NCBI GenBank assembly: GCA_017502435.1
Contig: JAFVUZ010000171.1
Span: 1-43,454 of the forward strand
DNA: 43,454 nt
Reading direction: 5' to 3'
Origin: Lentisphaeria bacterium
Lineage (GTDB): Bacteria; Verrucomicrobiota; Lentisphaeria; Victivallales; Victivallaceae
This document shows positions 4,855 through 38,991 of the stretch, piece by piece. The notes beneath the pieces are model-generated. The model was not told where the DNA came from. It searched no databases and worked only from the letters and a program-made list of their open reading frames with translations. How positions within the stretch are numbered: the stretch's first letter is position 1; each line of letters begins with the position of its first letter. The position numbers and the translations under genes are program-made.

Positions 4855-4873
4855 TATGTCCCGTTGAAAATTC

Positions 4874-4912
4874 AACCGTGCAGTGCTGTAAATGACATTG
4901 CACGGTTTTGTT
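4874..4912 (+). terminator. intrinsic terminator after the small exported protein
   Basis: A 9-bp perfect stem pairs AACCGTGCA (4874-4882) with TGCACGGTT (4899-4907) and is followed by TTGTTTTG. It lies about 20 nt after the stop codon and before ychF, so ychF probably has separate or read-through expression. Confidence 0.75.
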
Positions 4913-4946
4913 TTGCTAACTGTTTTATTACAAAGGATTTCTGACT

Positions 4947-7055: not shown

Positions 7056-7068
7056 ACTTTCCTCGTAA

Positions 7069-9744: not shown

Positions 9745-9750
9745 AATATT

Positions 9751-10737: not shown

Positions 10738-10758
10738 AATACATTTTTATAAAAACAG

Positions 10759-11652: not shown

Positions 11653-11654
11653 CT

Positions 11655-20992: not shown

Positions 20993-22160
20993 CGGCGAGC
21001 ATTTCGATATTGATTGTGCCCGGGAAGAAATCAAAGGGGATCAGTGCTTCGATTTTGCAGTTGTTGTTTTCGTAAATTTTGAGAGCGGGAACGATTTCAT
21101 CCGCACCGCAGAATAAATGGAAAATCTTTTTCGGGTGCCGTGAAATCAGATATTCAAGTACGCCTGCTGCACAGCCTTTGCGGGGCGGATCGAGAAAAAT
21201 CCACTCATTTTCATGTCGTGAAGGCGGCATTTTTGACCGCAGATAATCCGCAGTTACAAAGCCGGTTTCATAGTGAAATGCTTTTTCTTTGAAGTGAAAT
21301 TTGGCATTGCTGCGTGCCGATGCTATTGATTCCGGCGAAAGTTCCACGCCCCATACTGTTTTGAAAACATCTCCGAATGCCAGCGACCACAATCCGTAAC
21401 CGCAATACAAGTCCATCATGGAATCGTTGCCGGCAGGTTTGAGATATTCCGCAAGTTTCTGATAAAATGCGGGCAGAACAGACTCATTTATCTGCGAGAA
21501 AGAAGTCGGAGAATAGAGAAATTTTTTATCATTTAATTTCAAGGCGAGAAAATCTGAGCCGGAAAGTTTTTTGAATGCAACTCCTTTGGCGGGACGTTCC
21601 GCTTCAAGATAATAATCTGAAGTGCTTTCATCCACATACAGAAATATGCTTTTGACGACAGGAAATGCCGCTGTCAGGGCATTTGAAGCAGTTTTGAGTA
21701 TACGGACAATATCGCCTGATAAATGCCGCAGATTAAATATTACAGCGTGTTCTGAATAGGAACCGCGGATGATAATGTAGTTCAGAACGGAACTCGCTTT
21801 GAAGTTTTTCGGTGTGGAGAAAAATTTCTGCAGAAATCTGTAAATTTCAATATGACTGTCAGGTTCAAGTTCCGAGAGGGCAATCAGTTCATTGCCGGGC
21901 TTTTTGCCGAAATGCAGGACGATTTTTTTGCGGTCAAAAAATACACGCCGTTTGGTCGTCGTGCGGTATTTCCGGGGCAGGGGGCTTGGAATGATATTCT
22001 GCGGCAAAGTCTTGATGCCGTTATCTTTGAACATTTGCAATACGGCAGTGTTTTTCAAGTTGAGTTCGCTGTCGTAATCAAGTTCAGACAGTGCATCAGT
22101 TGAAGTTTTATTGATATTGAAACCGTTTGAGACGGCAGGGAAATATTCGTTGAATTTCAT
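20979..22160 (-). CDS. TrmA/RumA-like RNA (uracil-5-)-methyltransferase
   Basis: This is a 393-residue class I SAM methyltransferase. Signatures are YSPTSFSQIN (217-225), DLYCGYGLWSL (250-260), VWGVELSPESIASAR (269-283) and LDPPRKG (323-329). The catalytic Cys351 lies in HLFCGADEI and Glu386 in TINIE. In typical members the Cys block reads SCNPxTxxRD, so this one is divergent. There is no TRAM domain and no N-terminal Cys cluster, unlike RumA. The annotated start at ATG 22160 is preferred to a TTG at 22175, which lies in the terminator stem of the neighbouring gene. The target (tRNA U54 or an rRNA site) is uncertain. Confidence 0.7.
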   Translation of the reverse strand: MKFNEYFPAVSNGFNINKTSTDALSELDYDSELNLKNTAVLQMFKDNGIKTLPQNIIPSPLPRKYRTTTKRRVFFDRKKIVLHFGKKPGNELIALSELEPDSHIEIYRFLQKFFSTPKNFKASSVLNYIIIRGSYSEHAVIFNLRHLSGDIVRILKTASNALTAAFPVVKSIFLYVDESTSDYYLEAERPAKGVAFKKLSGSDFLALKLNDKKFLYSPTSFSQINESVLPAFYQKLAEYLKPAGNDSMMDLYCGYGLWSLAFGDVFKTVWGVELSPESIASARSNAKFHFKEKAFHYETGFVTADYLRSKMPPSRHENEWIFLDPPRKGCAAGVLEYLISRHPKKIFHLFCGADEIVPALKIYENNNCKIEALIPFDFFPGTINIEMLAVISI

Positions 22161-22202
22161 TGAAAAATAAAACAAGGGCGGAATTTTTTACGTTCCGCCC
22201 TT
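22161..22202 (-). terminator. strong intrinsic terminator of the giant gene
   Basis: On the minus strand a 10-bp perfect stem (AAGGGCGGAA with TTCCGCCCTT, 22202-22193 and 22183-22174, 9-nt loop) is followed by a T-rich tail (TTGTTTTATTTTT). It starts 19 nt after the stop at 22221. It ends at the start codon of the methyltransferase gene, so that gene needs its own promoter or weak read-through. Confidence 0.85.
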
Positions 22203-22220
22203 TGGGGTTGGTTATTGATT

Positions 22221-25200
22221 TTATGCGATGGTGATTAACTTGTTGGCAGTGTCGATATCCACATCGGAGAAGATGTCTGTTGCAGAGGTCAGGAAATATG
22301 TTCCTTCTTTCAATGAGGCGATATTATCATTTGTCAATTTGACATCGAAAAGTTTTCCGGTCGCTTCATTGAACTGCTTGATTGAAACATCGGCACCGAG
22401 GTTCTTGAATTCATATTTTCCGCTGCAGCCATTTTCGATAACAAATTCAAAGACCTGAACATCTTCATAATTGAATATGCTGAAATCATAGTCGCAATTG
22501 CCGCCTTTTTTGGCGTTGGTTGATTTAACCATTGCAATATATTGACTTGAATCATTAAGAAGGATACCATTGCCGTTTTTGTCCTGGAATATTGCATCAC
22601 CGACTGCATTTGTTTTTGCAGTATAACTTGCAATTGCAGTCAACTTGCTGTTGTCCGGATTGACGATGTACAGAGTCAACTGTGCGGCATCACTGTTGCT
22701 GAAGTTGAAATCATAGTACCCGTCGGCATCAACAGAGACATTGTAGTAATCATATTCATCGGTGTATCCGACCCAGCCTTTGACTTCGTCAGAAATGACT
22801 GATTCTGTGAGTGCAGTATCATTGAATTCCTGATCTGCTTTGGCAGTGAAACTGTCTTCTGTGCCGTCACCATTGATATTGAGAGTGAAGTCAGAATATC
22901 CCTGAGCGGTGGTGGATTTTACCTGAATGTAATAATCACCGGCTTCGAGGAGGAAATTCTTCATTGCTTCAGCGACGCCGGCTTTAACCGTGAAACTGCC
23001 GACGGATTTCAGAGAAATGCCGTTATCAGCCATTGTGTAAATGGTGACAGTCATTGCTGTTGCGTTTTGTTCGTTATCTTTGAGGATAGACAGATTGAAG
23101 TTTCCGCCATTTTCAAGTTCAAGTTTTCTCCAGCTTTCCAGATCGCCATAGCCGACCCAGGAGGAGAAAGCACCTGTTGTTTGTTCGTCGTTGAGAGCGA
23201 TGGTTTCGTCTGCAGTAAGATTTGAGAAATCGCTGTCTTTAACACAGTCAGTAATATCTTTTACTGTTTCGGAAATAATCTCAAAACTTGAAGCCGGGGA
23301 GACTTCAACAAAATAGGTTGTGTTGGCATCAAGATATGCAGTATCGGATGACAATTTGACTTTTGTCAGGTTTACAGCACCGGTTTTGAGGGTGTAAACG
23401 TTGACTACTGCACCGCTGAATTCGTATTTGCCTGTCATATTGCCGGTTTCAAATTTGTAGAATTTAGGACCATCTTCAGCAACTTCGATTTTCGTATCTG
23501 CAGCAACTGTGCCGGCGTTTACATAATTTGCAACAGTGTCCGGGATTGTTTCATAAGTCTGTGCAGTATTGACAGAGACATTATATTCTGCATATTTTCC
23601 TTTTGCCGCGTCGGTTGCAGTGATTTCAATGAAATACTGTCCGGCTGCAAGATTGTTTAATGTGAATACGGATGAATAGTTACTGTTTTTCAAAGTAATA
23701 CTCTTGACGGCGGTAAAGCCTGTGCCGGCAGCGTTGGAGGTATAGAGAGTTGCTTTGAGGGCACTGTAATCTGAACCTTTGGTATTCTGATTGCGGTTTA
23801 CTGTAAATGTATAATCGCCGTCTTTTTCCAGATTGACTTCAAGATAATTTACGTTTTCGCCGAATCCGATGTATTCATAAGACTCTTTGCTGTTGGTGTC
23901 GTTAAGATAGATCAGGCCTGTGGAGTTGATGGTATATTCATAGCCGGCTTCATAAATAGTTTCGGTTCCATTGGCTCCAAAGTTGACATAATCCATAACA
24001 ACGGCATATTCGACAGCAGTTTTTTGTGGTGCAGATGCTTTGACTTCGATGTAATATTCACCTTTATCGAGATATGCACTGAGTTCTCCTGCAAGAGCTT
24101 TGGCTTTGACTGTGATACTATTGACTTTTGTAAGAGCAGTTTTGCCGTCCTGCAATTCGTAAATTGTCATAGTCAAAGCACCGTCAATGCCAAAGATCCT
24201 TCCGTATCTGTCTTTGTCAAGGTAATAAGCTTTGCTGATAGCGAAATTGTACACCCCGGCATCACTTACAGTGATTTTGCGGAAATCACTTGCATCGCCG
24301 ATACCGACATAATCGTAATCTGCAACGGATAATTTACTTGTTTGTGCGGTGTCCGGAGTACCGAAAATGAAATTGTATTCTTCTTGGATATCATCTTTGG
24401 TAATCGAGATAATAGTATCAGCTTCCGTACTGTTGACGAATAAGTCATCTTCGTTATTTATATTGTCGAAATATTTATCTGCTTTTGAAGTGACTGTGAG
24501 GTCATAAATGACGTTGGCACCTTTGGCTGCACCGGTTGAATTTACCTGAATGATATAATCGCCGGGAGCGAGGTTCAAATCATTAATTGTGCCGTAAAGT
24601 TTATTGGCGGCAACAGTTATGGATTTGACTGTTTTGAGAGCGGTTGCTCCGGGCAGCATTTGATAAATTGTAAGTTTGAGTGCAGAATTTGTCTGAGTTG
24701 ATTCTTTGTTGAGGTTGAATGTGTACAAGCCGTTGTCGCCAATGTGCAGTTTTGTGAAATTGCTGGGGTCTGCGTATCCGACACGGGCATCGGTTGCGAG
24801 TTGAAGCTCATGGCCGGGTAATACATCATAATTCAAACTGTCATTTTGTGCCGGATTCCAGAATGCATTATATTTGCTGACCGGATTTGAAGTGCTATCT
24901 TGGTTTTCTTCTGCAAAATCTGCCTGATCTGAAGTTATGATAGAATTATTATCATTTGTAATATCAAACCAGTTGAAATTGTAGTACAGATCGTATTGCA
25001 TTATAGAATCGGCTTTGCCGGATGTGACTTCAAAACGCAAGTTATTGCCGGAATGCTCAAGCAGATGGGTGATTGTAATACCGCTGCTTTGTGAAGCGGC
25101 ATTGAGTTTGAAGGTATAACTTCCGATTTTGATATCTCCGCCATTGTCTTCATAAATATCAATGATAATGGAGTTGCCGGAACCGGAGATTTTTTGCAGA

Positions 25201-28200
25201 TTGTCAATTGAAATTTGTATTTCTCCGGGAGCATTGTTGATACCATTGTCGGTTGATACATAGATATTGTCATAAGTATCACTGCCGCCGATAAGCTGAT
25301 TGTGAATTGCAATCGGACCTGTGCTGAAGGGAGTGTAACCGGGATTGTCTTCTCCGGTACTGTCCTCGTCAATATCTTTGTATGAAATATAGACACCTTC
25401 GATAACGGTTTCTTCGCTGTAGTTGCCGTTATTGTCGATAGCATAGATGGCAAAGTCGTATGTTTGATCTTTGAACAGCGTGATCTGGCATGAATTTTCA
25501 GTGATCAGATCTGTACCGTTAATATATACTTTCTGCCATTGATTATTGATGGCGGCGCATCTGTAAGAGAGAACGTATCCTTTGATACCGTATCTATCCA
25601 GAGCAGCGGGCCATGAAACGGTGGTCAGAATGCGGGGATCGTCATCTGTGGGTTTATCAAATGCGACTTTGATAGTGGTATTGATTTTGTTGGGAGATGT
25701 ACCGACGGAAGTTTCGGGAATGACCGGGCGTGTAAGATCCTGAATGAAGGTGTATTTTTCACTTTGGGCATATTTGCCGGTACTGTCATAAGCTTTGATA
25801 GTCAAAGTGTAATCGCCTTCATCAAGAATTGCCCCGTTGTTGTTTACTAAAAAAGCATTGTAGCAGTGAGTTACAGGACTTGAAATTCCATTTTCTGAAA
25901 TGATTTCATAGTATGCAAGAGCACCATTGTTGCCGCCGTTATTGCTTGAATATTCAACGATAAAGTAGTCATAACCGAGCAGCGTTGAGGTGTTTAAAAT
26001 ATCGAAACGCAACTCCTGATTGCCATCATTTTTTTGCAAAACAGCACCGTTGACCGAGATAAATTCGCGTGAATTGTCGATTTGTGCGATAACGGAAATA
26101 TTGTACGGGGCTGCGGGGGTTCGGGTTTCTGTAATTTTCTGATTGGTGAGATCGGATTGGAAATTAAGATCCTGAACTGCTTCAAAGTCAGTTTCATTAC
26201 CGGAGCCGTCAACGGCTTTGATCTGCCAGTAAGTCTGATTTTTGTTGGCGAACATACCGACAGGAACGGTCGGATTTTTATTGTCCATGATAATTGTTGT
26301 GGTATAATAATTTGAACCTTTACGCCAGCTGCCGGATGAAGTTGTGCTTGAATTTTCATCGTTTTCAGTGCCGGAAGAGGGCGAAGATGATGTAGTTGAA
26401 GAAGCATTGGCAACAAAAATACGGAGATTATTGTATTTGTCAGAAAGAGAATTGTATAAAGTAAAGACATCTGCATCAGGCATAGTGCTGGGAACGATCA
26501 GTACTGTATAAGTGCGGTTGGAGTCAAAGAATGCACTGTCGGAAACCTGCATGAGATAGTAAACACCGTTATCAGATGTAAATGTATCTGTCCAGGAAAG
26601 TGTGACAGTTGCTTCGGTGATTTCTCCGATGATTTGCTGTGTTGTTTCAGAAGAACCTTCACCGCTTCCGGGTATTGTATTTTCGATGATATTGTGAGTT
26701 GCTTTGACGACAGCTTCCTTGATATCGGTGAAAACACCGACAGGAGCTGAACCGCCGGTAGAACCGCCTTCACCGCCGCCGCCTTCGGGAGAAACATTGA
26801 GTTCCTTGTTAATAATGGAAGTGGTATTACCGATTTTATCGGAAACGGAGATTGAAACAAAATATTTTCTGTTGTTGTAAACGAAACTTTCAAATTCTTC
26901 GTTATAAACGGGGTTGCCGGCAGTATCAAGTTCATAATAAGTCATATTGCCGGTTCTTATCTGATAACCCTGATATTTGCTGTCGGGAACGAATTTGTTG
27001 TTTCTGGGAGTGACACCATTGATTCTGACATAGGTCAACTCACCGGTTTCCGGATCATTTGTCAAGCCCCAGAGTTCCCAGTCAACGGAATTTCTGGCAC
27101 CGTTAACGTCAGTATAATAGATATCAATGACATACTCATTGATGCCGGTACTCTGGAAAGTTCCGTTCTCTGAGGTCGGGTCAACAGCCGGATTGAATGA
27201 GAAAGTGTAGTTCCAGCCGAGTTGCTGCATGTAGTCACCTTCGCCGATGATCCAGGCATTAGCTTTTGTTTCGGTGAGAGTACATTCAGGTTTGACATTA
27301 TCGACAGCATAGATCGTGATTTTGTCAGAGGGTGTGCCGTAGTTGCCGGCGGCATCAACGGGACGCACACGGATATCATAAATGCCGGGGGCAATATTGA
27401 AGTTGAATTTCTGAATATCATCGAGTTCGTGAGCGTCAATGTGATAAACTTCGGTCCATTGATTTTTATCTTTGGGACTTGCTTCCAGGATATAGTAACG
27501 GACGCCGGATTTTTCATCATCAGCGGTAATGCCGCCCCAAGTGAAGTCTTTGATAGTGAATTCTTTGGAAGTAATGGCATATTCGAGTTCCTGGTTGTAG
27601 CTGAGGACAGTTTTATCAATGAAAGCGGGACCTTCGGTATCACCGAGGAAGATACGGAAGTCGCCCCCTTCAACGTAATTATTCTGAGTACCGAGTATGT
27701 CGGTGGCATTTACCTGCCAGTAGATATAACTTTGGTTGGAGAGACCGGAGGCGAGGAGTTCAGTACCGCTGACATTTTTGGATACGAAGTTGTAGTAGTT
27801 GTAAATATTTTCTTCTGTACCGTCAGAGAATTTAATGGAGCTGACGAGTTCACGGATCTGGATTTCGCCGTTGCCGAAATATATGTCAAAAGTGATGGTT
27901 TTGCCGTTTTCGTCATAAGAATGAACTCCGTTCTGCCAGCCGTCTTGTTTTGAAGCCTTGGCATAAGCATCAAAGATGGCTTTGCGTTTGAGGTCATTGC
28001 CGGAGAGGTCTTCGGTACTTGAGAAATACTGGACATTGTAATAGTCGACAGCATAATTGCTTTCGACGGCGCGCCATGTGAAGAGGGCAATACTTGAACC
28101 GATACGGCGGGTATTGTCATCGGGATTGACGGCGACCATGTATTTTGAATTGACATCCTCGACGAAAGCGGGATATTCCTGTTTCTGAGTATTGATGGAA

Positions 28201-31200
28201 GCATTGACCCATTCAGAGATTTCAAATCCGTCGCCGTAGTAGTCGCGGATCTGATATTTGACAGTGCTGCCTTCGGGGATATTGTCAATATCATAACTCA
28301 TTATATAATAAGCCCCGACGAAAGTTGAGGGATCAGAACCTTCTTTCTGATATTCAGCAAAAGTTTTTCCGTCAGCATTGACGAGATAAATTCTGCCGGT
28401 AACGGGATTTTTCTTGTTTCCGTCGATTTCAATAGTTCCGTTGAAAGCATCTTTATTGCCGTCAACAGTATTCAGACGCAGGAGCGCGTGCGAATATGCA
28501 TTGCCGTTGGCATCAACAATTTCATAAACGATTTCATAGGCGGAATTTTTGTAATCAGCAATATCACACATCCAGTAAAGTGTGGTAGATGCAGTTGATG
28601 AATAAGTTGTTTCATCTTTGCTGTAAGTGACATAGTTAACTTCACTGTCATTACGCCAGCTGATGTGATGTTCAAAAGCTTCCTTCATAGCGGCGAGTTC
28701 ATCTTGAGTTTTGAGAGAGTTGACAGTGTTGAGAGAAACGTATTCATTTTCGACTTTGACAGCGTTGCCGTTTGCATCTTTAACAACGTCACCGTTTTCA
28801 TCGAGCATATCTTCAATTTTTGTTTCAATATTAACGGCGGTCAAGGTCTTCGGAGTGAAGAACGGGTCTTCTTTTGCATTTTCATCTTTGAGTGCTTTGA
28901 CGGAGAGGGTATGAGTGTCTGTGTCGTAATTGACTTTGACATAAATTGATTCACCGTTTGAACCGTCGATCTGACCGAGACCGCTGTAATTGTTGAGGTA
29001 AATCAAACGGCTTTCTCCCATGTAGGAGATGGTAAGTGCACCGGTTTTCCAATGAGTATCAGCAAGATCGGTAACATCAGCACTTCCGACATATTCGAGG
29101 ATTCTGTAAACTTCACCTTCAGCAATATTGTTGCAGTTGATGGTGATGGTAGTATTACTTGAGAGAGTTGCATCACATTCATTATTTACGGTATGAATGG
29201 CGTATTCCTCGCCAGCGTATCTTGCTTGTTCATCATTGAGAGCATAGGTGAGGTTGATTTTGCCTGTATCATGGTAAACGTAACCGAAAAAGCGTGCATT
29301 ATCATCGAAAGTGAGGTCGTTATTGCCGCCGCCGAGAGCGATGATACCGAAAACAGTAGCATTTTCGCCCAGCTGGAGAATATCATTTTTGAATCCGGAG
29401 GCTACATCATTTCCGAAGTCAGTTTTTACTGCATAACTCAAATAGACGTAGTCAACAGTTTGTGACATATAATAGAGATTGTCGAGAGTAAAATCAGTAA
29501 CAACCACAGGATAGGTGCTTGAGAAAACAAGCCCGTCAACATAGATATTGGCTGTGTCAGGAGTTGCAATCGCATGCTGCTGTGAATAACCCTGCATGAT
29601 GATAGCGCCTTCCACAGTGAAAGTATCCAGAGCAACGACGATCTTTTTCTCTCCGGGATTTGTGCCGTAATCGTTACCGGCATCTTCACCTATGAATGTA
29701 TAGTAATATCCGAGAGCGGATTTGAATGATTCAGCATATATACCGAATGCATTTACTACAGATGAATAAACTTTTATGTCACCGGCAAATCCTTTTGCAT
29801 CAAGTGTTCCTTGAACATATATGCCTGATGCTATCCAACTTCCACCATCAGAGTTTACTGTAATTGTTGATTTAATAAAACCGTCAACAGTCATAGTATT
29901 GGCAAAAATACCATCGGAGTGAGTAGATGCTTTTTTGGTATCATTAACTGTTCCATGCTGGTCATTTCGAATTGTTTTACTTACTAAATGGCATGTGTCG
30001 TTGTTACTTGTATTTACTGTAATAATACCATGAAGATTTCTGTCAACATTGAGATTTGTGGCACGGATACCGGCAAAGGTATAAATACCGGTGCCGTTTA
30101 AATCATCGGGAAAATCAATGTAATTATTTTTACCTTCAACGTAAATAGTACCATAGAAATCATTAAGATTTACAGTGTTGCCGTAAATACCGATTGAATT
30201 TATCTGGTTGTCTGTAATTGTTCCTTTGCCGATAACCGCATACATTTCATTGTCATTAGCGTATGTTTCAATAATTGAACCGGCAGCAAAATCTTTGATT
30301 GTAAGGTTGTTTTCTCCGTAAATACCGACAGCCTGAACGATATTGTTCTGCATAGTATTTGAGGCGGGAGTAGCATCACCTGTTACTTTCAGAATATTGT
30401 CATTTGCTTCAGAATAAATCAGAATATCTTTATCAACGGTGATATATATATTGAAATCTTCATGTTCCAATGTGGTATATTCATAAAGGAGCAATGACGG
30501 CAATCCTGAATTATTATCTTTGGGATTGATGTTTTTCGGAGTAAGCCCATTAATTAAAGAAATATTACTGTTTGACAAACTTCCATTTTTACTGTCTTCG
30601 GCACCTTTAATGCTGTAATCAATAATGAAGTTGGGATCAGTACTGTCAGTGACAAATCCGAATTTGCCTGAGTTGTATGAAGTTGATTTATTGAAGCTGA
30701 CAGCTCCTGTAGTATAATCAAATTCGTAATAGCCTCTTATTTGATTGTCATTAAAATTCAAGGAGGTAAGATCAATTGTTTTATAAATTTCAGCATCTTC
30801 TTCAGTAAATGTATAACTGCAACGATTGCCGTTGAAGGTCACTTCAGAAGCTTCAATACGGACATATTCACCGTCAATATTCAGAATGTAACATCCGTCA
30901 GAGAGTTTGTTTTCACATTCCCAATGGACAGTGCTGTATTTGATATTTTCATTTTTTGACATATCTTCGGGATTATTGCTGTTCATTACAATCTGTCCTG
31001 CTGAGATATTGCCGACATCAGTAGAGGAAAATACGACTTTATTTATGGTCCATGATGTAATATCTGCATCAAGAACTTTTCCTTCATTGTAGAGTTGGAA
31101 TGTGTAGAAGGCAGAAAGAGAATCATAATTGCCGGAATCAATCAAAATAACATTAATGTTTTGCATACTGTAAGTACCATCGATGTTTTTTGTGTATACA

Positions 31201-32435
31201 GCGATTTCTCTTACAGTACCGTTACCTTTTACTCCACCATTTGTAAATTCAACTCTGGTGCCTTCTTCTACCTTCAAACCGGACGGCAGTTCAATGTAGT
31301 AATATTTATAACCGGATGCATCTCTAACGTAAGCATTATCGATTTTTTCTGTCATATCGGTAGCCGTAACCCCGTCTACCTTCAAATTTTCCCAGGTAAA
31401 TTCTGCATTTTTGTCAATGTATTCGATTTTTTTGCCGGATGCATGAGATGAATTGAAACTTGCATCAAGCTGATTGATCGTTACTTCTTTTGCCCGCAGA
31501 CCGGCGGCAGTGATGGTATTGTTTGAGAGGTTGCCATTTGAAGTACTATCGTCAATAGTTGCATCAAGATAATTTTTATTGGCAGTGGTAAAAATTGTTC
31601 CTGCATGAACATTGTCCTGAGTAATTCTCTCCTGACTGAAAACACCGTATGACCCGATTGTATTATTTTGCATTGACTTTCCAGCTGCAGTTTGGAAATG
31701 AACATGAACATTGGCTTTGATGCTGCCGAAGAAACTTCCGTTGAAGTTTACAGCATCATTGCCGCGCAGACCGGCAGCAATAGTACTGGTGTCATTTGCT
31801 GTGTTTTTTGTATTGCCGGAGGGGTCTTTCATGCCGATTGATTCATGGTAGCCTTCAACGTTGATATAACCATTAAAATGAGAGGCTGCGGTGAGGGTGT
31901 TTTTTGCATAAATACCGTTAATGTCAGCAATTTGTCCGGAAAAATTATACTTATCGTTATATTGTACATTTGCACCTGTTTTGAGGGTGATATTTACGCC
32001 ATTGATGGTGAATGAGTCTTCGATGGCACCTTCTGACGCTTTATATTGCTGCCAACCGTCAGTACCGGTATTTGCTTTGTCGTTAGAGAGGAAGTGGTAA
32101 GCATTGATTTTGATATTGCGGTCGTCATGCTTTTTGCCATCGGGAGCACCGATTTGAGAAGAGATATTGAGTTCGCCCTTGCCATTGAAGGAGACAGCGG
32201 CGTAAATCTGGTTGTTTAAGTTGGCTGTCAGAGATTGTTTCTGATAAATATTCCAGTCGTTTCCGTAATTGCCGCCGATGGTGAAGGTTTTGTCCGCAGT
32301 AAGATAAAAACCTTTGAAGGTTTGTATAACTTCACCGTTGAAGTCATGATAATTGCCGACATTGGCAAGCAAATAAACGTCTGCATTATGCACTGTTGCA
32401 ATGTGGTCGTCAGAATCAAAATAGTAGTAAGCCAT
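22221..32435 (-). CDS. giant (3404-residue) repeat-rich surface/secreted protein
   Basis: The ATG follows AGGAGG by 6 nt, so the start is firm. The N-terminus MAYYYFDSDDHIATVHNADV has no Sec signal. Residues 1 to about 1050 are Asn/Gly-rich short repeats with recurring GIYA...L.I..F.G.I motifs, like a right-handed beta-helix adhesin, closing with LGGGNNDLTF. Residues about 1250-2500 hold several Ig/FN3-like units (for example near 1625-1720, VDAAGNYGTPSDKITIYAVD). These are joined by Gly-rich (about 1880-1898) and Ser/Thr-rich linkers. Residues about 2545-3320 hold five repeats like prepeptidase C-terminal domains. The C-terminus ends DTANKLITIA. I infer export by a non-Sec route such as type I secretion, but no transporter gene is nearby. 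A cell-surface adhesin or matrix protein is likely; the ligand is unknown. Confidence 0.75.
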   Translation of the reverse strand: MAYYYFDSDDHIATVHNADVYLLANVGNYHDFNGEVIQTFKGFYLTADKTFTIGGNYGNDWNIYQKQSLTANLNNQIYAAVSFNGKGELNISSQIGAPDGKKHDDRNIKINAYHFLSNDKANTGTDGWQQYKASEGAIEDSFTINGVNITLKTGANVQYNDKYNFSGQIADINGIYAKNTLTAASHFNGYINVEGYHESIGMKDPSGNTKNTANDTSTIAAGLRGNDAVNFNGSFFGSIKANVHVHFQTAAGKSMQNNTIGSYGVFSQERITQDNVHAGTIFTTANKNYLDATIDDSTSNGNLSNNTITAAGLRAKEVTINQLDASFNSSHASGKKIEYIDKNAEFTWENLKVDGVTATDMTEKIDNAYVRDASGYKYYYIELPSGLKVEEGTRVEFTNGGVKGNGTVREIAVYTKNIDGTYSMQNINVILIDSGNYDSLSAFYTFQLYNEGKVLDADITSWTINKVVFSSTDVGNISAGQIVMNSNNPEDMSKNENIKYSTVHWECENKLSDGCYILNIDGEYVRIEASEVTFNGNRCSYTFTEEDAEIYKTIDLTSLNFNDNQIRGYYEFDYTTGAVSFNKSTSYNSGKFGFVTDSTDPNFIIDYSIKGAEDSKNGSLSNSNISLINGLTPKNINPKDNNSGLPSLLLYEYTTLEHEDFNIYITVDKDILIYSEANDNILKVTGDATPASNTMQNNIVQAVGIYGENNLTIKDFAAGSIIETYANDNEMYAVIGKGTITDNQINSIGIYGNTVNLNDFYGTIYVEGKNNYIDFPDDLNGTGIYTFAGIRATNLNVDRNLHGIITVNTSNNDTCHLVSKTIRNDQHGTVNDTKKASTHSDGIFANTMTVDGFIKSTITVNSDGGSWIASGIYVQGTLDAKGFAGDIKVYSSVVNAFGIYAESFKSALGYYYTFIGEDAGNDYGTNPGEKKIVVALDTFTVEGAIIMQGYSQQHAIATPDTANIYVDGLVFSSTYPVVVTDFTLDNLYYMSQTVDYVYLSYAVKTDFGNDVASGFKNDILQLGENATVFGIIALGGGNNDLTFDDNARFFGYVYHDTGKINLTYALNDEQARYAGEEYAIHTVNNECDATLSSNTTITINCNNIAEGEVYRILEYVGSADVTDLADTHWKTGALTISYMGESRLIYLNNYSGLGQIDGSNGESIYVKVNYDTDTHTLSVKALKDENAKEDPFFTPKTLTAVNIETKIEDMLDENGDVVKDANGNAVKVENEYVSLNTVNSLKTQDELAAMKEAFEHHISWRNDSEVNYVTYSKDETTYSSTASTTLYWMCDIADYKNSAYEIVYEIVDANGNAYSHALLRLNTVDGNKDAFNGTIEIDGNKKNPVTGRIYLVNADGKTFAEYQKEGSDPSTFVGAYYIMSYDIDNIPEGSTVKYQIRDYYGDGFEISEWVNASINTQKQEYPAFVEDVNSKYMVAVNPDDNTRRIGSSIALFTWRAVESNYAVDYYNVQYFSSTEDLSGNDLKRKAIFDAYAKASKQDGWQNGVHSYDENGKTITFDIYFGNGEIQIRELVSSIKFSDGTEENIYNYYNFVSKNVSGTELLASGLSNQSYIYWQVNATDILGTQNNYVEGGDFRIFLGDTEGPAFIDKTVLSYNQELEYAITSKEFTIKDFTWGGITADDEKSGVRYYILEASPKDKNQWTEVYHIDAHELDDIQKFNFNIAPGIYDIRVRPVDAAGNYGTPSDKITIYAVDNVKPECTLTETKANAWIIGEGDYMQQLGWNYTFSFNPAVDPTSENGTFQSTGINEYVIDIYYTDVNGARNSVDWELWGLTNDPETGELTYVRINGVTPRNNKFVPDSKYQGYQIRTGNMTYYELDTAGNPVYNEEFESFVYNNRKYFVSISVSDKIGNTTSIINKELNVSPEGGGGEGGSTGGSAPVGVFTDIKEAVVKATHNIIENTIPGSGEGSSETTQQIIGEITEATVTLSWTDTFTSDNGVYYLMQVSDSAFFDSNRTYTVLIVPSTMPDADVFTLYNSLSDKYNNLRIFVANASSTTSSSPSSGTENDENSSTTSSGSWRKGSNYYTTTIIMDNKNPTVPVGMFANKNQTYWQIKAVDGSGNETDFEAVQDLNFQSDLTNQKITETRTPAAPYNISVIAQIDNSREFISVNGAVLQKNDGNQELRFDILNTSTLLGYDYFIVEYSSNNGGNNGALAYYEIISENGISSPVTHCYNAFLVNNNGAILDEGDYTLTIKAYDSTGKYAQSEKYTFIQDLTRPVIPETSVGTSPNKINTTIKVAFDKPTDDDPRILTTVSWPAALDRYGIKGYVLSYRCAAINNQWQKVYINGTDLITENSCQITLFKDQTYDFAIYAIDNNGNYSEETVIEGVYISYKDIDEDSTGEDNPGYTPFSTGPIAIHNQLIGGSDTYDNIYVSTDNGINNAPGEIQISIDNLQKISGSGNSIIIDIYEDNGGDIKIGSYTFKLNAASQSSGITITHLLEHSGNNLRFEVTSGKADSIMQYDLYYNFNWFDITNDNNSIITSDQADFAEENQDSTSNPVSKYNAFWNPAQNDSLNYDVLPGHELQLATDARVGYADPSNFTKLHIGDNGLYTFNLNKESTQTNSALKLTIYQMLPGATALKTVKSITVAANKLYGTINDLNLAPGDYIIQVNSTGAAKGANVIYDLTVTSKADKYFDNINNEDDLFVNSTEADTIISITKDDIQEEYNFIFGTPDTAQTSKLSVADYDYVGIGDASDFRKITVSDAGVYNFAISKAYYLDKDRYGRIFGIDGALTMTIYELQDGKTALTKVNSITVKAKALAGELSAYLDKGEYYIEVKASAPQKTAVEYAVVMDYVNFGANGTETIYEAGYEYTINSTGLIYLNDTNSKESYEYIGFGENVNYLEVNLEKDGDYTFTVNRNQNTKGSDYSALKATLYTSNAAGTGFTAVKSITLKNSNYSSVFTLNNLAAGQYFIEITATDAAKGKYAEYNVSVNTAQTYETIPDTVANYVNAGTVAADTKIEVAEDGPKFYKFETGNMTGKYEFSGAVVNVYTLKTGAVNLTKVKLSSDTAYLDANTTYFVEVSPASSFEIISETVKDITDCVKDSDFSNLTADETIALNDEQTTGAFSSWVGYGDLESWRKLELENGGNFNLSILKDNEQNATAMTVTIYTMADNGISLKSVGSFTVKAGVAEAMKNFLLEAGDYYIQVKSTTAQGYSDFTLNINGDGTEDSFTAKADQEFNDTALTESVISDEVKGWVGYTDEYDYYNVSVDADGYYDFNFSNSDAAQLTLYIVNPDNSKLTAIASYTAKTNAVGDAIFQDKNGNGILLNDSSQYIAMVKSTNAKKGGNCDYDFSIFNYEDVQVFEFVIENGCSGKYEFKNLGADVSIKQFNEATGKLFDVKLTNDNIASLKEGTYFLTSATDIFSDVDIDTANKLITIA
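22480..24800 (-). repeat. five PPC-like protein repeats in the giant gene
   Basis: The encoded units begin near 24795 (ARVGYADPSNFTKL), 24310 (DYVGIGDASDFRKI), 23870 (EYIGFGENVNYLEV), 23165 (SWVGYGDLESWRKL) and 22785 (GWVGYTDEYDYYNV). Each has VGxxD, then GxYxF, TiYxM, LxxVxSxTVKA and a closing GDYYIQVKST block. Shorter, degraded units lie between the third and fourth and at the very end. Such beta-sandwich repeats occur in the C-terminal part of many secreted proteins. The divergence between units indicates an old amplification. Confidence 0.65.
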
Positions 32436-32481
32436 ATTGGACCTCCTGTTGGGTATTTTGTTATAATTATATACTCAATGC

Positions 32482-32510
32482 AATATAGCAGTGCAAAAAC
32501 GTTATGTCAA
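32482..32510 (-). promoter_or_regulatory. near-consensus sigma-70 promoter of the giant gene
   Basis: On the minus strand, perfect TTGACA (32510-32505) and TATATT (32487-32482) are separated by 17 bp. An A/T-tract resembling an UP element lies upstream (about 32525-32570). The start is about 40 nt before the ATG. This is the best promoter in the window and predicts strong expression. Confidence 0.8.
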
Positions 32511-32613
32511 GCGTATTTCAGGGGATTTTTTAATAATTTTTAATATTTTTTTTACAAAAATGGTACAATAATGTTTTCAGGAGTACGTTAAACCGGAAAT
32601 CCGGGCAAAAAAA

Positions 32614-32687
32614 TGGAGGCGTGGATCGGAGTCGAACCGATTTAAGCGATTTTGCAGACCGCTGCCTGACCGTTTGGCTACCACGCC
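32614..32687 (-). tRNA. tRNA-Cys (anticodon GCA), CCA encoded
   Basis: A full cloverleaf is visible. The acceptor stem pairs GGCGTGG with CCACGCC (32687-32681 and 32624-32618). The anticodon stem is GCGGT/ATCGC with loop CTGCAAA and anticodon at 32655-32653. The T-arm contains GGTTCGACTCC. U73 is the discriminator typical of tRNA-Cys, and a CCA end is encoded at 32616-32614. It lies between the giant gene and the terminator of the glycosidase-like gene. Confidence 0.96.
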
Positions 32688-32738
32688 TCAATTCTTGAGG
32701 AGCTGCATATACATTACACCACTTTCAAGAAAAATCAA

Positions 32739-32783
32739 GCCGTGTTTGCAAAAAAAATCGATTTTTTTTTGCAGAAACACGGC
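32739..32783 (-). terminator. long near-palindromic terminator of the glycosidase-like gene
   Basis: The arms GCCGTGTTTGC and GCAGAAACACGGC, together with runs of 8 A and 9 T around a central TCGA, form a roughly 20-bp stem with a 2-nt bulge. The A and T runs make it able to work in either direction. It starts 25 nt after the stop at 32808 and insulates the gene from the tRNA. Confidence 0.8.
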
Positions 32784-32807
32784 ATTTCGAGTACAGTGTA
32801 TTGCTGT

Positions 32808-34955
32808 TTATGCTTTAATATACTGACAGTTTATGATTTTTTCCAGCAGTTCGTTTACTGTGTAAGCGTAGTGATTTGTCGCTTCAAAACCGAGACGGGA
32901 GTCCTGACGTGCGAGTTTCAGGAGTTTGGCTGCAAGGGCGATTTCTTCATCCAGAAGTTTGTTCCGTGCAGCAGTATCGTTGCCGTCACGGAGTCTGTCG
33001 ATGAAATACGCCTGATTTGCGGCACTTGCATAGGCACAGAAACAGGCCTCTGCAACTGAACAGAGATCATTGTAATTGTCTTGAAATTCAGGAGTTATAT
33101 CGGAAGCGGCACTTTTCAGAATGTCCATACCCTGCTGCCAGATTTCACAGAGTTTGTAAAGAGAGTTGTAATAAGTTGCAGGTTTGTACGGACCGCACCA
33201 GCCTTTTAAATCGTCGTACGGAATGCCGACCATAGTGGCTTTGTACTTTGTATCTGCAGGATAGAGCAGATTAGCAGGGCCGATATTGTGGGGGGAATTG
33301 TACAAAACTTCAACATCAAACGGGAATTTTGTAAATGCTTCACTGAAAAGATTTAATGCTTTGTCTATTTTTTCTGCCGGTTGCTGACCGAAATTGTTTA
33401 TGACCATCTCTTCATGAGTCATTTGCAGCAAATCCATATTGAATGACGGATAGCCGCCGAGAGTCCAGTTGGTGACGTAGTTTTTGATGCCTTCATTGCG
33501 GAGTCCCTGCAGGTGTTTTTCGACCAGTTTTGTAGCGGGGATGTACGGTACGGCAGAGCCTTCCCAGGAGCATGACAACTGGGTTTTTGCAAAAGTTTTT
33601 AACCCGTATTCTGCGGCGATATGCCATGTTTTTTTGCTTTTTTCACCGGGGCCCGGACGTGAAATCGAGTAGTCTCGCACGCAGGTTTTAACGCCGTCGA
33701 TTTCGATGGGTATCTGACTTTCGCTGACTGCCATGAAAGCGGTTGATTTCGGAAGTTTTGCGGCGATTTCCGGAATCCATTCCTGACGCCATGCCCAGTC
33801 CCAGCAGATGATTTGAGCATCGGGATTTTCACTGCGGGCGGCATCGGAGATAATGGTTGCAATTTCTGCAATGACTTCAGGGACGGCACGTCCGGCACAG
33901 CGGGGACAGGAGGTGTTTTCTCCTTTAAGACATCTTGAATGACAGTGGGTCAGATATTCCGACTGGGTGATCATAAATGCACCGCCGAGCCCTTTGACTG
34001 AACCGAAAATGGATTTCACTGCATTTGCAAGATATTCTCTGACTGCAGGTTTTGCAGTACACATTGAGTAAAGATTCTGTTCCAAATCTTCGACTTCGAG
34101 ATATTTTTCCTGTATATTCTGATTATTTTTGAAAAGACCGATCGGCAATCCCCGGGGCTCATTGAGATAGAGAAATACTTTCATGCCGTATTTTGCGGCT
34201 TTTTTGACCAGATCGTTGAGCGAAGCAATGCGTTTCTCATAGTTTTGAGAGAGTTCAGGAGCATCCGCCCAGTAATGAAGCTGATACAGAACGCCCGGAA
34301 GCCAGATCGCATTTACACCTTTCTGACGCAGTTTATACAGAAGTCCGTCCGGATACGGATCAAGTTCAGGATTGGCAAGTGAATCCCCGTAAAGTGCTGA
34401 ATATGAATAAGCAATAAAAAGTCCGTCTGCAGTTTTGAATGTTGGAAGTTCTGACGGTGCTTTGAATTTTTTGATAAAGTCAAAAGGTGCTTCAACCGGA
34501 TAGTCAGGCTGGTATTTCAAAACAGTTTCCCGGATGACAGCGGTCTGTTTTTCCTCATCGGAAGTAAGTTCGCGGCACGGCTCGACCGGGCACTGCGGTT
34601 TCAGGCTGCCGAGTTTGATCCAGAGAAAGTCTTCATTCTGCAAAGTATCCGCCAGTTTTTCTGCACTCCAGCCCAGCATACGCAGTATTGCATCATAGTT
34701 GAGAAGCTGCCAGTTGGTGCGGATTATTGAAACATATCCTCTCTGCAGCCATGCGGGATCGGGATTTGCGGTTGGGAGTCCCATTTTTTCTGCGTGTTTT
34801 ATGACATCTTCAGCGGAGGAATTGAGAGCGGCGGCGATTTTTTCAACCGGCACGATGTTCCAGTTTCTGAAAATAACGGCTTGAAAATTGGTGGGGAACC
34901 ATGGGGTTGAAACCGCAGTTGGAGCGGAACCTGCAGGAAGTATATCCAAGTTCAT
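32808..34955 (-). CDS. putative TIM-barrel glycoside hydrolase, family not assigned
   Basis: The protein has 715 residues and no signal peptide. The N-terminal 150 residues look like an accessory domain. The barrel then has typical strand ends GVNAIWLPGVL (213-223), GMKVFLYLNEPRG (257-269), GGAFMITQSEY (Glu333 a candidate acid) and QIICWDWAW (381-389). A CX3CX7CX2C cluster (Cys338, 342, 350, 353) follows the putative acid and could hold zinc. The C-terminal 200 residues are helical. This outline resembles glycosidases related to hexosaminidases in Verrucomicrobia and Planctomycetes, but I cannot place it in a GH family. It diverges from the CE15-like genes, with a shared control region. The ribosome site is AAAGG. 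Confidence 0.6.
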   Translation of the reverse strand: MNLDILPAGSAPTAVSTPWFPTNFQAVIFRNWNIVPVEKIAAALNSSAEDVIKHAEKMGLPTANPDPAWLQRGYVSIIRTNWQLLNYDAILRMLGWSAEKLADTLQNEDFLWIKLGSLKPQCPVEPCRELTSDEEKQTAVIRETVLKYQPDYPVEAPFDFIKKFKAPSELPTFKTADGLFIAYSYSALYGDSLANPELDPYPDGLLYKLRQKGVNAIWLPGVLYQLHYWADAPELSQNYEKRIASLNDLVKKAAKYGMKVFLYLNEPRGLPIGLFKNNQNIQEKYLEVEDLEQNLYSMCTAKPAVREYLANAVKSIFGSVKGLGGAFMITQSEYLTHCHSRCLKGENTSCPRCAGRAVPEVIAEIATIISDAARSENPDAQIICWDWAWRQEWIPEIAAKLPKSTAFMAVSESQIPIEIDGVKTCVRDYSISRPGPGEKSKKTWHIAAEYGLKTFAKTQLSCSWEGSAVPYIPATKLVEKHLQGLRNEGIKNYVTNWTLGGYPSFNMDLLQMTHEEMVINNFGQQPAEKIDKALNLFSEAFTKFPFDVEVLYNSPHNIGPANLLYPADTKYKATMVGIPYDDLKGWCGPYKPATYYNSLYKLCEIWQQGMDILKSAASDITPEFQDNYNDLCSVAEACFCAYASAANQAYFIDRLRDGNDTAARNKLLDEEIALAAKLLKLARQDSRLGFEATNHYAYTVNELLEKIINCQYIKA

Positions 34956-35124: not shown

Positions 35125-36318
35125 ATGCATAAAAATACAGATGAATCATGCGTCGGCCCTTATACTCTGCCTGACGTTCTCAAGTGCAGTGACGGCAGAA
35201 TGATTGATAACGCTTTTGACTGGGTGAATACACGCCGCAGTGAAATTCTGGATATTTATCGCAGAACGATGTACGGTTTTCTGCCGCCGCGTCCGGACAA
35301 AACTGAATTTGAAGTCATTTCAGAGAAAAATGATGCTCTTGACAATACAGCTATCCGCAAAGAGATACGTCTTTCTTTTGCAATGAATAATGGCAGAAAG
35401 CACTCTTTTGTCATGCTCCTTTACATCCCCAAAAATGCCGCCAAACCGGTTCCGGTATTTTGCGGATTGAATTTTAAAGGCAATCACAACTGTACTTTTG
35501 AAGATGATGTTGAAATGACCGGCAGAAACAGCAGCGGAGAACTTGTGGAAACTGAACGGTCAGATCAGATACACCGCTGGCAGTTTGCTGAAACTGTCAA
35601 ACGCGGTTTTGCCAGTGCCACGGTCTGCTATCATGATATTTACCCTGATGAAAAAGATGAAAATTCATGGCGTAAAAGCGTTTATAATATGTTTTTTGCC
35701 GATGAATCCAATGAAGAATTTCATTCTCACGCAAGTGCAGTAAGTGCATGGGCATGGGGACTTTCAAGAATGCTGGACTGTCTGGAAAGTGAACCTTTGA
35801 TCGACAGTTCCAAAGCATTTGTTCACGGACATTCCCGACTTGGCAAAACTTCTCTCTGGGCGGGGGCAAATGATACCCGTTTCAAAATGGTTGTCTCAAA
35901 TGATTCCGGCTGCTGCGGTTCAGCACTTTTGCGTCGTGATTTCGGTGAAACTGTTGAAATTATCACTCACTATTTTCCGCACTGGTTTGTCAGTTCTTTT
36001 GCCGGATATGCCTGTTGTGAAGCGGAAATCCCGTTTGACCAGCACTGGCTGATTTCTTTGATTGCTCCCCGCTATGCGGCAATCGGCAGTGCAGAGGAGG
36101 ATTTGCACGCCGACCCGAAGGGCGAATTTCTGTCAGGAGCTCATGCCGGTAGAGTTTATAACCTTTTCGGCATTGAAACTTACAATGAAAATACTCCGCA
36201 TCCGGTCAATTCATGTATCACCGGTGCAGTAAGTTATCACATCCGCAGCGGCGGTCATGATCAGACTTTGGTTGACTGGAAACACTACTGGGAAATTGCA
36301 GATATTATCAAAGGATGA
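35125..36318 (+). CDS. CE15-like (glucuronoyl esterase family) hydrolase, paralogue 1
   Basis: This is a 397-residue alpha/beta hydrolase. The nucleophile elbow is GHSRLGK with Ser237, and the catalytic His378 lies in GGHDQT. Blocks LNFKGNH, WAWGLSRMLDC, GANDTRF, SGCCGSAL, LPF/IPFDQH and LIAPRYAAIGSAEEDLHADPKGEF match bacterial CE15 enzymes. Known members cleave ester links between glucuronoyl groups of xylan and lignin. The ATG has AAGGAG 6 nt ahead and there is no signal peptide, so the protein should be cytosolic. The protein begins at the point where the mature part of paralogue 3 begins (MHKNTDES). It is transcribed divergently from the glycosidase-like gene. Substrate unknown. Confidence 0.8.
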   Translation: MHKNTDESCVGPYTLPDVLKCSDGRMIDNAFDWVNTRRSEILDIYRRTMYGFLPPRPDKTEFEVISEKNDALDNTAIRKEIRLSFAMNNGRKHSFVMLLYIPKNAAKPVPVFCGLNFKGNHNCTFEDDVEMTGRNSSGELVETERSDQIHRWQFAETVKRGFASATVCYHDIYPDEKDENSWRKSVYNMFFADESNEEFHSHASAVSAWAWGLSRMLDCLESEPLIDSSKAFVHGHSRLGKTSLWAGANDTRFKMVVSNDSGCCGSALLRRDFGETVEIITHYFPHWFVSSFAGYACCEAEIPFDQHWLISLIAPRYAAIGSAEEDLHADPKGEFLSGAHAGRVYNLFGIETYNENTPHPVNSCITGAVSYHIRSGGHDQTLVDWKHYWEIADIIKG

Positions 36319-36403
36319 AAAGTAACCTTCAGTTTGACCTGTTTAAATCTTTCACAGAATTCAGACATTGACAGTAAATTTATACTTTTTCCGGTCAAAA
36401 TAT

Positions 36404-36431
36404 TTGTAAAAAGGTACTTGAATGCTAATTT
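36404..36431 (+). promoter_or_regulatory. promoter of the second CE15-like gene
   Basis: TTGTAA (36404-36409) and TAATTT (36426-36431) are 16 bp apart, with TGC ahead of the -10 box. AAAAAGGTACTTG (36408-36420) lies in the spacer and matches the sequence ahead of the glycosidase-like gene at 12 of 13 positions. The 158-bp gap between paralogues 1 and 2 holds no other feature that I see. Confidence 0.45.
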
Positions 36432-36476
36432 AATACGAAAACATTTTCTGTATTTGTTGTTTTAGGAGTTTACATC

Positions 36477-37664
36477 ATGTATAAAAATGAAGATGAATCA
36501 ATGGTCGGAGCATACACACTTCCTGAAGTTCTCGAATGTTCCGATGGTAAAATTATTGATAATGCTTTTGACTGGGTTCATATCCGCCGTCCGGAGATAT
36601 TGGAAATATACAAAAAGACGATGTACGGTTATCTGCCGGTGCGTCCGGACAAAACAGAATTTGAGGTCGTTTCAGAAAAAAATGACGCCCTCAACAATAC
36701 TGCTGTACGCAAGGAGATAAAACTTACTTTCAGTATGAATGGCAAAACCCACTCTTTTGTCATGCTGTTGTATATTCCTAAAAATGCAGTTGCTCCCGTT
36801 CCGGTTTTTGTCGGTTTGAATTTCAGGGGCAATCACACTGTTACGCCTGAAAATGATGTTATAATGACCGGAAAAACTCTTGACGGAGAGTTCGTTGAGA
36901 GCAGACGTTCAATACATATCAACCGCTGCTGTTTTGAAGAAACTGTCAAACGTGGCTATGCCACTGCGACGGTCTGTTACCATGATGTTTATCCTGACAG
37001 TAAAGATGAAAATTCATGGCGGAAAAGTGTTTACAATTTGTTCTATGCCGATGAAAGCAATGAAAAATTTCACACTCACGCTTCCGCGATCAGTGCATGG
37101 GCATGGGGTATGTCCCGTATGCTTGACTGTCTGGAAGGTGAAAAAATGATTGATTGCAGTAAAGCATTTGTTTACGGACTTTCAAGATTGGGCAAAGCCG
37201 CTCTCTGGACGGGGGCAAATGATACACGTTTCAAAATGGTAATAAGCAACGAGTCCGGCTGCTGCGGTGTAGCACTTCTGCGTCGTGATTTCGGCGAAAA
37301 TGTGGAAATTATCACTCACTATTTTCCGCACTGGTTCGTCAGTTCTTTTGCTCAATATGCCTGTTGTGAAGCAGAAATCCCGTTTGACCAGCATTGGCTG
37401 ATTTCTTTGATTGCTCCCCGCTATGCGGTAATCGGCAGTGCAGAGGAGGATTTGCACGCCGACCCGAAGGGAGAATTTCTGTCAGGAGCTCATGCCCGCA
37501 GAGTTTACAAACTTTTCGGTATTGAAACTTACAATGAAAATACTCCGCATCCAGTCGGTTCACATATCACCGGTGCAGTAAGTTATCACATCCGCAGCGG
37601 CGTTCACGACCAAAACCTTGCCGACTGGGAACATTACTGGGAAATTGCAGATAAAATTAAATAA
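36477..37664 (+). CDS. CE15-like hydrolase, paralogue 2
   Basis: This 395-residue protein is closely similar to the paralogues on either side. The elbow is GLSRLGK with Ser236, and the catalytic His377 is in GVHDQN. The usual first His of GHSR is Leu here and in paralogue 3. It begins MYKNEDES without a signal peptide; AGGAG lies 8 nt ahead of the ATG. Long stretches of DNA are identical to paralogue 3 (for example around 37029-37070 and 38348-38390), suggesting recent duplication or gene conversion. It is followed after 28 nt by paralogue 3, so they form an operon. Likely cytosolic; substrate unknown. Confidence 0.8.
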   Translation: MYKNEDESMVGAYTLPEVLECSDGKIIDNAFDWVHIRRPEILEIYKKTMYGYLPVRPDKTEFEVVSEKNDALNNTAVRKEIKLTFSMNGKTHSFVMLLYIPKNAVAPVPVFVGLNFRGNHTVTPENDVIMTGKTLDGEFVESRRSIHINRCCFEETVKRGYATATVCYHDVYPDSKDENSWRKSVYNLFYADESNEKFHTHASAISAWAWGMSRMLDCLEGEKMIDCSKAFVYGLSRLGKAALWTGANDTRFKMVISNESGCCGVALLRRDFGENVEIITHYFPHWFVSSFAQYACCEAEIPFDQHWLISLIAPRYAVIGSAEEDLHADPKGEFLSGAHARRVYKLFGIETYNENTPHPVGSHITGAVSYHIRSGVHDQNLADWEHYWEIADKIK

Positions 37665-37692
37665 AATATAAAACGTGAGAAAGGTTATTGTA

Positions 37693-38991
37693 ATGTTGAA
37701 AAAATTATCAGTTGTGATGTTGGGCTTGACTGCTGTTGTTTTTTGCGGCTGCCGGACAGAGCGTTTGACTTCTGCTCCGGGCAGAATCAAAAATCCTGTC
37801 ATGCATAAAAATACAGATGAATCGCTGGTCAAACCTTATATTTTACCTGATGTTCTGTTGAGCAGAACAGGTAAGAAAATTGAAAACGCTTTTGATTGGG
37901 TGCATATCCGTCGCCCTGAACTGCTTGAACTTTACAAAAAGGAAATGTATGGTTATCTGCCGTTGCGTCCGGACCGGACAGAATATGAAATTATTTCCGT
38001 CAAAGATGACGCTCTCAACAATACTGCTGTCCGTAAGGAAATTAAACTTACTTTCAGTATGAACGGTAAAAAACACTCTTTTGTCATGCTGTTGTATATT
38101 CCTAAAAATGCAGTTGCTCCCGTTCCGGTTTTTGTCGGTTTGAATTTCAAAGGCAATCACACCGTTACACCCGAAAAAGATGTCCTTATGACCGGCAGAA
38201 ATGTTGACGGAAAATTAATTGAAAAGAGACGATCAAGACATATCAAACGTTTCTATATTGAAGAAACTGTCAAACGTGGTTTCGCCACTGCAACGGTCTG
38301 TTATCACGATGTTTATCCTGATAACAAAGATGAAAATTCGTGGCGGAAAAGTGTTTACAATTTGTTCTATGCCGATGAAAGCAATGAAAAATTCCACACT
38401 CACGCTTCAGCGATCAGTGCATGGGCATGGGGTATGTCCCGTATGCTTGACTGTCTGGAAGGTGAAAAAATGATTGATTGCAGTAACGCATTTGTTCACG
38501 GTCTTTCAAGATTGGGTAAAGCCGCTCTCTGGGCAGGTGCCAACGATACCCGTTTCAAACTTGTAATAAGCAACGAGTCCGGCTGCTGCGGTGCGGCACT
38601 TGCCCGCCGTGACTTCGGAGAAACTCTGGAAATAATCACCCACTATTTTCCGCACTGGTTCGTCAGTTCTTTCAAAAAATATGTACATCGAGAGAACGAA
38701 TTGCCCTTTGACCAGCACTGTTTGGCAGCTTTGATTGCTCCGCGGTATCTGGCAATCGGCAGTGCAGAGGAGGATTTGCACGCCGACCCGAAAGGGGAAT
38801 TTCTGTCAGGTGCTCATGCCGGCAGAGTTTATAAACTTTTCGGCGTTGAAACTTACAATGAAAATACTCCGCATCCGGTCGGTTCACATATCACCGGTGC
38901 AGTAAGTTATCACATCCGCAGCGGCGTTCACGACCAAAACCTTGCCGACTGGGAACATTACTGGAAAATTGCAGATAAAATCAGGAAGTAA
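37693..38991 (+). CDS. CE15-like hydrolase, paralogue 3, predicted lipoprotein
   Basis: The protein has 432 residues. The start at ATG 37693 has GAGAAAGG 8 nt ahead; a GTG at 37675 is less likely. Residues 1-19 form a lipoprotein signal (MLKKLSVVMLGLTAVVFCG) with Cys20 as the probable lipid site, although the -3 and -2 residues (Phe-Cys) are unusual. The hydrolase domain starts at Met37 (MHKNTDES) and carries Ser272 (GLSRLGK) and His413 (GVHDQN). It is the only paralogue with an export signal, so it should act in the periplasm or on the surface. The EamA transporter gene follows after 3 nt. Confidence 0.82.
   Translation: MLKKLSVVMLGLTAVVFCGCRTERLTSAPGRIKNPVMHKNTDESLVKPYILPDVLLSRTGKKIENAFDWVHIRRPELLELYKKEMYGYLPLRPDRTEYEIISVKDDALNNTAVRKEIKLTFSMNGKKHSFVMLLYIPKNAVAPVPVFVGLNFKGNHTVTPEKDVLMTGRNVDGKLIEKRRSRHIKRFYIEETVKRGFATATVCYHDVYPDNKDENSWRKSVYNLFYADESNEKFHTHASAISAWAWGMSRMLDCLEGEKMIDCSNAFVHGLSRLGKAALWAGANDTRFKLVISNESGCCGAALARRDFGETLEIITHYFPHWFVSSFKKYVHRENELPFDQHCLAALIAPRYLAIGSAEEDLHADPKGEFLSGAHAGRVYKLFGVETYNENTPHPVGSHITGAVSYHIRSGVHDQNLADWEHYWKIADKIRK

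Follow-up and report, generated by a model that had tools for sequence, protein, structure and literature searches.

Among the closest described systems are the giant type I adhesins of the LapA, SiiE and BapA type. These proteins are leaderless, very large, repetitive and acidic, carry their export information at the C-terminus, and are secreted through an ABC/HlyD/TolC exporter. The PPC, AIDA, FN3 and RTX modules that recur in the proteins discussed below are all extracellular types. Here we describe a giant open reading frame from a Lentisphaeria bacterium, found on a contig of 43,454 nucleotides (GCA_017502435.1, JAFVUZ010000171.1) that was analysed over its whole length and is referred to as the window. 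Our search of the literature turned up no account of this PPC-giant family, nor any of Lentisphaerae exporting giants by a type I route. Comparison with related sequences makes it likely that the product is a leaderless, adhesive surface or secreted protein, exported by a type I system whose ABC/HlyD pair and outer channel are encoded on two other contigs of the same genome (C63 and C114), with the C-terminal tail as the signal.

A giant frame with a firm start and no leader

On the reverse strand of the window, positions 22221–32435 (stop codon included) form one unbroken open frame of 3404 aa that begins with an ATG at 32435–32433. An AGGAGG ribosome-binding site lies at 32442–32447 and a sigma-70-type promoter match, TTGACA-17-TATATT, at 32482–32510, both on the same strand. 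The promoter match agrees at 11 of 12 positions, has a TG ahead of the second hexamer, and ranks among the two best promoter-like matches in 21900–33000. Because this region is richer in such matches than its shuffles (43, against a mean of 27.7 with a standard deviation of 5.0), the match taken alone is weak evidence. The ribosome-binding site and ATG are, however, kept in relatives G001 and G002, the promoter is conserved in the congener G001, and an upstream in-frame stop is just 13 codons from the ATG. The start is therefore firm, and the first-pass annotation, which had fixed it from the AGGAGG and the near-consensus promoter, was right to do so. Of its further idea that this may be one of the cell's most abundant surface proteins, the sequence shows no more than a good promoter that is conserved.

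The protein has no Sec signal, and there is no upstream room for one. In a heuristic hydropathy test with 19-residue windows, the best value within the first 40 residues was 0.32 and the maximum for the whole protein was 1.27; the N-terminus is polar, and no Sec signal or transmembrane-like segment was detected by this measure. The nine proteins of an alignment share one starting position, and none is extended at its N-terminus. The earlier description of a surface-type frame with a firm start and no signal peptide thus agrees with both the hydropathy and the 13 codons available upstream, and it survives the search for relatives with an extended, signal-bearing N-terminus, none of which appears in the nine-protein alignment. 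A crude signal-peptide test, applied to the 76 core-motif loci described below, was passed by 4 of the 54 PPC proteins whose N-terminus is complete, compared with 91 of 247 background ORFs that are 300 aa or longer. On visual inspection, the only true-looking Sec signal among the 54 belongs to a PPC protein of G016 (contig C201, L194:4782–8750), an exception that also lacks the LA tail considered below. The window protein is acidic (453 D + E versus 234 K + R) and contains no RTX motif (GGxGxD nonapeptide repeats).

Directly upstream of the giant gene is a tRNA-Cys gene. The genes around the giant read as household and sugar genes, and none of the genes within the window resembles a type I component. 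Positions 6159–12536, named by eye, look like a cluster for CMP-sialic-acid-type sugar synthesis (synthase, cytidylyltransferase and phosphatase) with glycosyltransferase-like genes. Positions 35125–38991, also named by eye, encode three tandem related esterase-like proteins, with a lipoprotein-type signal at the start of the third only.

Domain organization and distribution

Searches of Pfam and NCBIfam over cut-off and of PHROGs at E 0.001 gave no match for the window protein, and its organization was worked out from alignments, own-family profiles and structure models. All domains are given in reverse-strand coordinates. Alignment and profile define a conserved N-terminal cap (aa 1–150; 31986–32435) with a TIGG motif and no signal peptide. 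The cap is followed by a probable beta-solenoid (∼aa 160–1112; 29100–31958). The N-terminal model is mostly of low confidence (mean pLDDT 44.7), with only ∼aa 695–1110 modelled confidently; it has no PDB match at E 0.001, and its weak matches are mostly to beta-helical proteins. An attempt to name the N-terminal fold was dropped because the model is too poor. The middle of the protein (∼aa 1150–2500; 24936–28988) is Ig/FN3-like in that it aligns with homologous regions of Victivallis vadensis and G023 proteins that score for FN3/Ig models; the window protein itself passes no Pfam cut-off for these domains.

Five PPC-like units follow, at 24516–24851, 24018–24380, 23595–23942, 22896–23231 and 22503–22829, the fourth of which contains a WVGYGD motif. 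All five are supported by profile, with the evidence for four and a half of them coming from the family's own profile. We call the units PPC-like because the window protein falls short of the Pfam gathering score for PPC (PF04151); related proteins from G023 (34.9 bits) and from contig C202 of the same genome (32.3 bits) do pass it. A model of the last 345 residues (mean pLDDT 75.1) shows beta-sandwiches, and its best structural matches are the ColG collagen-binding domain (1nqj; Z 12.0, rmsd 2.1, 96 residues) and the PPC domain of 5sv5 (Z 11.6). These matches cover ∼aa 3076–3189, mainly the fourth unit, and barely reach the terminal domain, so that fold support exists for one of the five units that the profile supports. 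Within this segment the model supports a PPC/CBD beta-sandwich fold. The last unit, defined by alignment and model as a terminal PPC-variant domain (22224–22478), is unlike the inner ones and ends in the short hydrophobic tail LITIA, a candidate type I export signal. The first-pass annotation had described the body as beta-helix, Ig/FN3 and PPC-like repeats; the PPC-like repeats stand on the profile and one predicted fold and the Ig/FN3 repeats on homologous regions, and a beta-helix or beta-solenoid in the N-terminal part is plausible only.

A core-motif scan of a genome collection of 84,980 species returned 76 loci. Almost all carry the label Lentisphaeria, Lentisphaerae or Victivallales/Victivallis, one is labelled Akkermansia, and a few have no label; Victivallis vadensis DSM 14823, which has a homologue in L197 and an HlyB-type ABC gene in L090, accounts for two. 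The PPC-like unit profile matches 25 of 61 genomes, and the first 1200 residues match in five of the 61, the own genome counted. Of 137 genomes from the order, 20 match a profile of the cap (first 150 residues), and nine of these do so strongly (E below 1e-30), again with the own genome included. No relative came up when the genome contigs were first scanned using the full-length protein, and at E 0.01 the N-terminus found only the window protein itself in its own genome, leaving no paralogue of the kind that the earlier annotation had proposed to look for by a shared N-terminus.

A conserved C-terminal tail

We compared the C-termini of 78 non-redundant PPC proteins that have a stop codon with those of 870 other ORFs, each 150 aa or longer, using 150 loci (the window, L014–L018, L044, L045, L076–L115, L126–L145 and L169–L250). 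An LA or LAS end is found in 38 of the 78 PPC proteins and in 8 of the 870 background ORFs, statistics that, like those that follow, ignore relatedness and use a background that includes mechanical, possibly spurious ORFs. A [FLI][VAI] end occurs in 31 of 78 versus 26 of 870, and the same end with an optional S or G in 47 of 78 versus 33 of 870; among the 168 background ORFs that reach 600 aa, the three patterns occur 4, 7 and 9 times, respectively. The window protein fits [FLI][VAI] through its final IA and is not itself an LA/LAS protein. The [FLI][VAI] end has been described for RTX/type I substrates (PMC8861453). Among our five RTX-bearing proteins, similar tails are present in L218 (GMLAG) and L171 (VLIA), L245 ends in LASL, and L095 and the RTX-plus-PPC protein of L213 have no such tail.

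These comparisons support, as a candidate export signal, a conserved C-terminal element made up of the terminal PPC-like unit and its short hydrophobic end. The first-pass annotation had proposed that the acidic, then hydrophobic C-terminus might be the signal; the hydrophobic part of that proposal is retained, together with the terminal unit, and acidity as such is not.

A probable type I exporter and its linkage to PPC giants

In the own genome, contig C63 encodes, side by side, an ABC protein (918 aa) and an HlyD protein (479 aa), and contig C114 encodes an OEP (TolC-type) protein. The HlyD protein exceeds the TIGR01843 cut-off (284.8 versus 208.65 bits). The ABC protein scores best with HlyB (TIGR01846, 618.5 bits), under the curated cut-off of 725.55 bits, and is also under the curated LssB cut-off. 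All three components of the set are thus encoded, with the ABC protein below the HlyB threshold. The first 310 residues of the ABC protein comprise two C39-like domains. The second is a Pfam match (30.2 bits), and a profile over 32 ABC proteins relates the first to the second with a probability of 96.2%. By eye, in the rows where the motif was found, the presumed catalytic-cysteine position is not Cys, and both domains are, to judge from these alignments, degenerate.

We next consider where this pair lies in relatives. Of 41 transporter loci (40 from relatives plus the own locus), four lack a detected ABC frame (L084, L089, L108 and L111) and five have a PPC giant adjoining the ABC gene: L091, L093 and L099, from G005, G022 and G033 of one genus; L100, from G031; and L110, from G037, where the gap between the two genes is 19 bp. 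The core-motif loci add a further PPC giant beside the transporter in L183 (G097), a gene that we take to be the G097 cap-match gene because the frames are of equal length. At L094 (G007), the N-terminal 156 residues of a window-protein homologue, that is, its cap, lie beside HlyD. In total, six genomes place leaderless PPC giants next to the ABC/HlyD pair, and a seventh has the N-terminal part of a homologue there. By a rough estimate, ∼0.05 or 0.2 cases of adjacency would be expected by chance for 3 or 12 assumed PPC genes per genome.

The ABC protein has a close orthologue (E no higher than 1e-200, a cut chosen once a gap in the list had become apparent) in 35 of 61 genomes. This orthologue is found in 23 of the 25 genomes with PPC proteins, the two others (G036 and G044) being incomplete, and in 12 of the 36 without PPC proteins (p 3e-6, ignoring relatedness).

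The most likely interpretation of these results is that the giant leaves the cytosol in a single step through a type I secretion system composed of the HlyB-type ABC protein with its two tandem degenerate C39-like domains, the HlyD protein and the TolC-type channel. The last PPC-like unit and the short hydrophobic end would serve as an uncleaved C-terminal signal. Outside the cell, the protein would present its N-terminal cap, the probable beta-solenoid and an Ig/FN3-like stalk, followed by the C-terminal run of PPC-like beta-sandwiches, and would probably act as an adhesin or matrix protein. We infer its use of the C63 transporter, the signal function of the tail and the adhesive role from the machinery in the genome, the linkage in relatives, the conserved tail and an RTX-bearing paralogue (contig C202), which together make type I export likely. 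The earlier suggestion of type I export is favoured by these four lines of evidence, and neither linkage nor RTX repeats at the window gene itself contribute to it.

The strongest competitor is that the giant reaches the outside through a different leaderless path or through lysis (an undescribed exporter, vesicles or cell death), with the type I system serving other cargo. The window gene is unlinked to a transporter and has no RTX motifs, and PPC proteins are absent, at the threshold used, from 12 of the 35 genomes with a close ABC orthologue, as this reading would allow. However, homologues of the window protein adjoin the ABC/HlyD pair in three genomes (G007, G031 and G097, three of the nine strong cap matches), and the type-I-like tail is common to the PPC proteins and some RTX-bearing proteins. 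We therefore regard release by lysis or another route as improbable.

Paralogues and other secretion routes

Three further PPC proteins of the own genome, on contigs C202, C88 and C250, have no signal peptide at their starts by eye. The C202 protein (L171:6079–17724) is leaderless, has 3882 aa, ends in VLIA and matches AIDA, C11 peptidase (clostripain-type), CARDB, FN3, PPC and RTX models over cut-off; near its N-terminus, a YLDFDG stretch resembles those in other giants (L135 and L141). The C88 (1084 aa, ending in QQIN) and C250 (1520 aa, ending in EKTA) proteins both combine AIDA repeats with PPC-like units. On C88, a TIGR04414 autotransporter-type O-heptosyltransferase gene (L014:1372–2700; 584 bits) is directly followed by the gene for the leaderless AIDA-repeat protein that ends in PPC-like units (2727–5981), and a same-looking pair is present in G001 (L174:2826–4142 and 4166–5998). 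On C250, the gene for a leaderless protein, at least 1760 aa long and matching bactofilin in three stretches (74.8 bits; L169:8719–13998), runs divergent from a PPC giant, and a similar arrangement is seen on contig C274 of G001.

The AIDA repeats and TibC-type heptosyltransferase at the C88 locus, together with matches of a T9SS sorting-tail model to the G023 units, would suit a substrate of the type V (autotransporter) or T9SS pathway whose signal went unrecognised. We rejected both readings, as there is no Sec leader and no match to an autotransporter barrel model, and SprA is over cut-off in none of 61 genomes (the control genomes likewise gave no positive); either is very unlikely. The C88-type pair suggests heptosylated cargo of a type I system rather than of an autotransporter. 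That the giant stays in the cytosol, as the missing signal peptide would permit, is just as hard to credit given the RTX repeats of the C202 paralogue, the linkage of homologues to an exporter and the extracellular PPC, AIDA, FN3 and RTX modules of its family.

Comparison with known systems

If type I export is the correct reading, the giant would belong to a Victivallales class of very large proteins that leave by type I export and for the most part lack RTX repeats. More tentatively, and with slightly more doubt than confidence, we propose that one tandem-C39-like type I system could be a general route in Victivallales for a lineage-specific giant leaderless secretome. Its passengers would be interchangeable (solenoid adhesins, possibly heptosylated AIDA stalks and peptidases), and their mark, in place of RTX repeats, would be a terminal PPC-type unit with a short LA/LAS-type tail, in the manner of a T9SS sorting domain. 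If true, this would provide a predicted export route for the giant surface proteins of a little-studied gut lineage that has a cultured type strain in Victivallis vadensis, widen the cargo of type I export beyond RTX-marked proteins to a large family marked by PPC units, and make the C-terminal tail readable for finding such cargo in metagenomes.

The C88 paralogue shares with the O-heptosylated AIDA-I autotransporters (TibC/Aah) its AIDA repeats and the preceding TIGR04414 transferase gene, but it has no evident Sec signal or barrel match and ends in PPC-like units. With PPC (PF04151) and collagenase collagen-binding domains, the window protein shares a predicted fold (ColG 1nqj and 5sv5); it differs from PPC in scoring below the Pfam cut-off, in its conserved WVGYGD motif and in the tandem arrangement of its units, of which the terminal one is special. 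Like giants of the LapA, SiiE and BapA type, it is leaderless, huge, repetitive and acidic, with C-terminal export information and an ABC/HlyD/TolC route that are here predicted. In contrast to those proteins, it has no RTX block and no adjoining transporter, its C-terminus is built of PPC-like units, and the ABC protein proposed to export it carries two C39-like domains.
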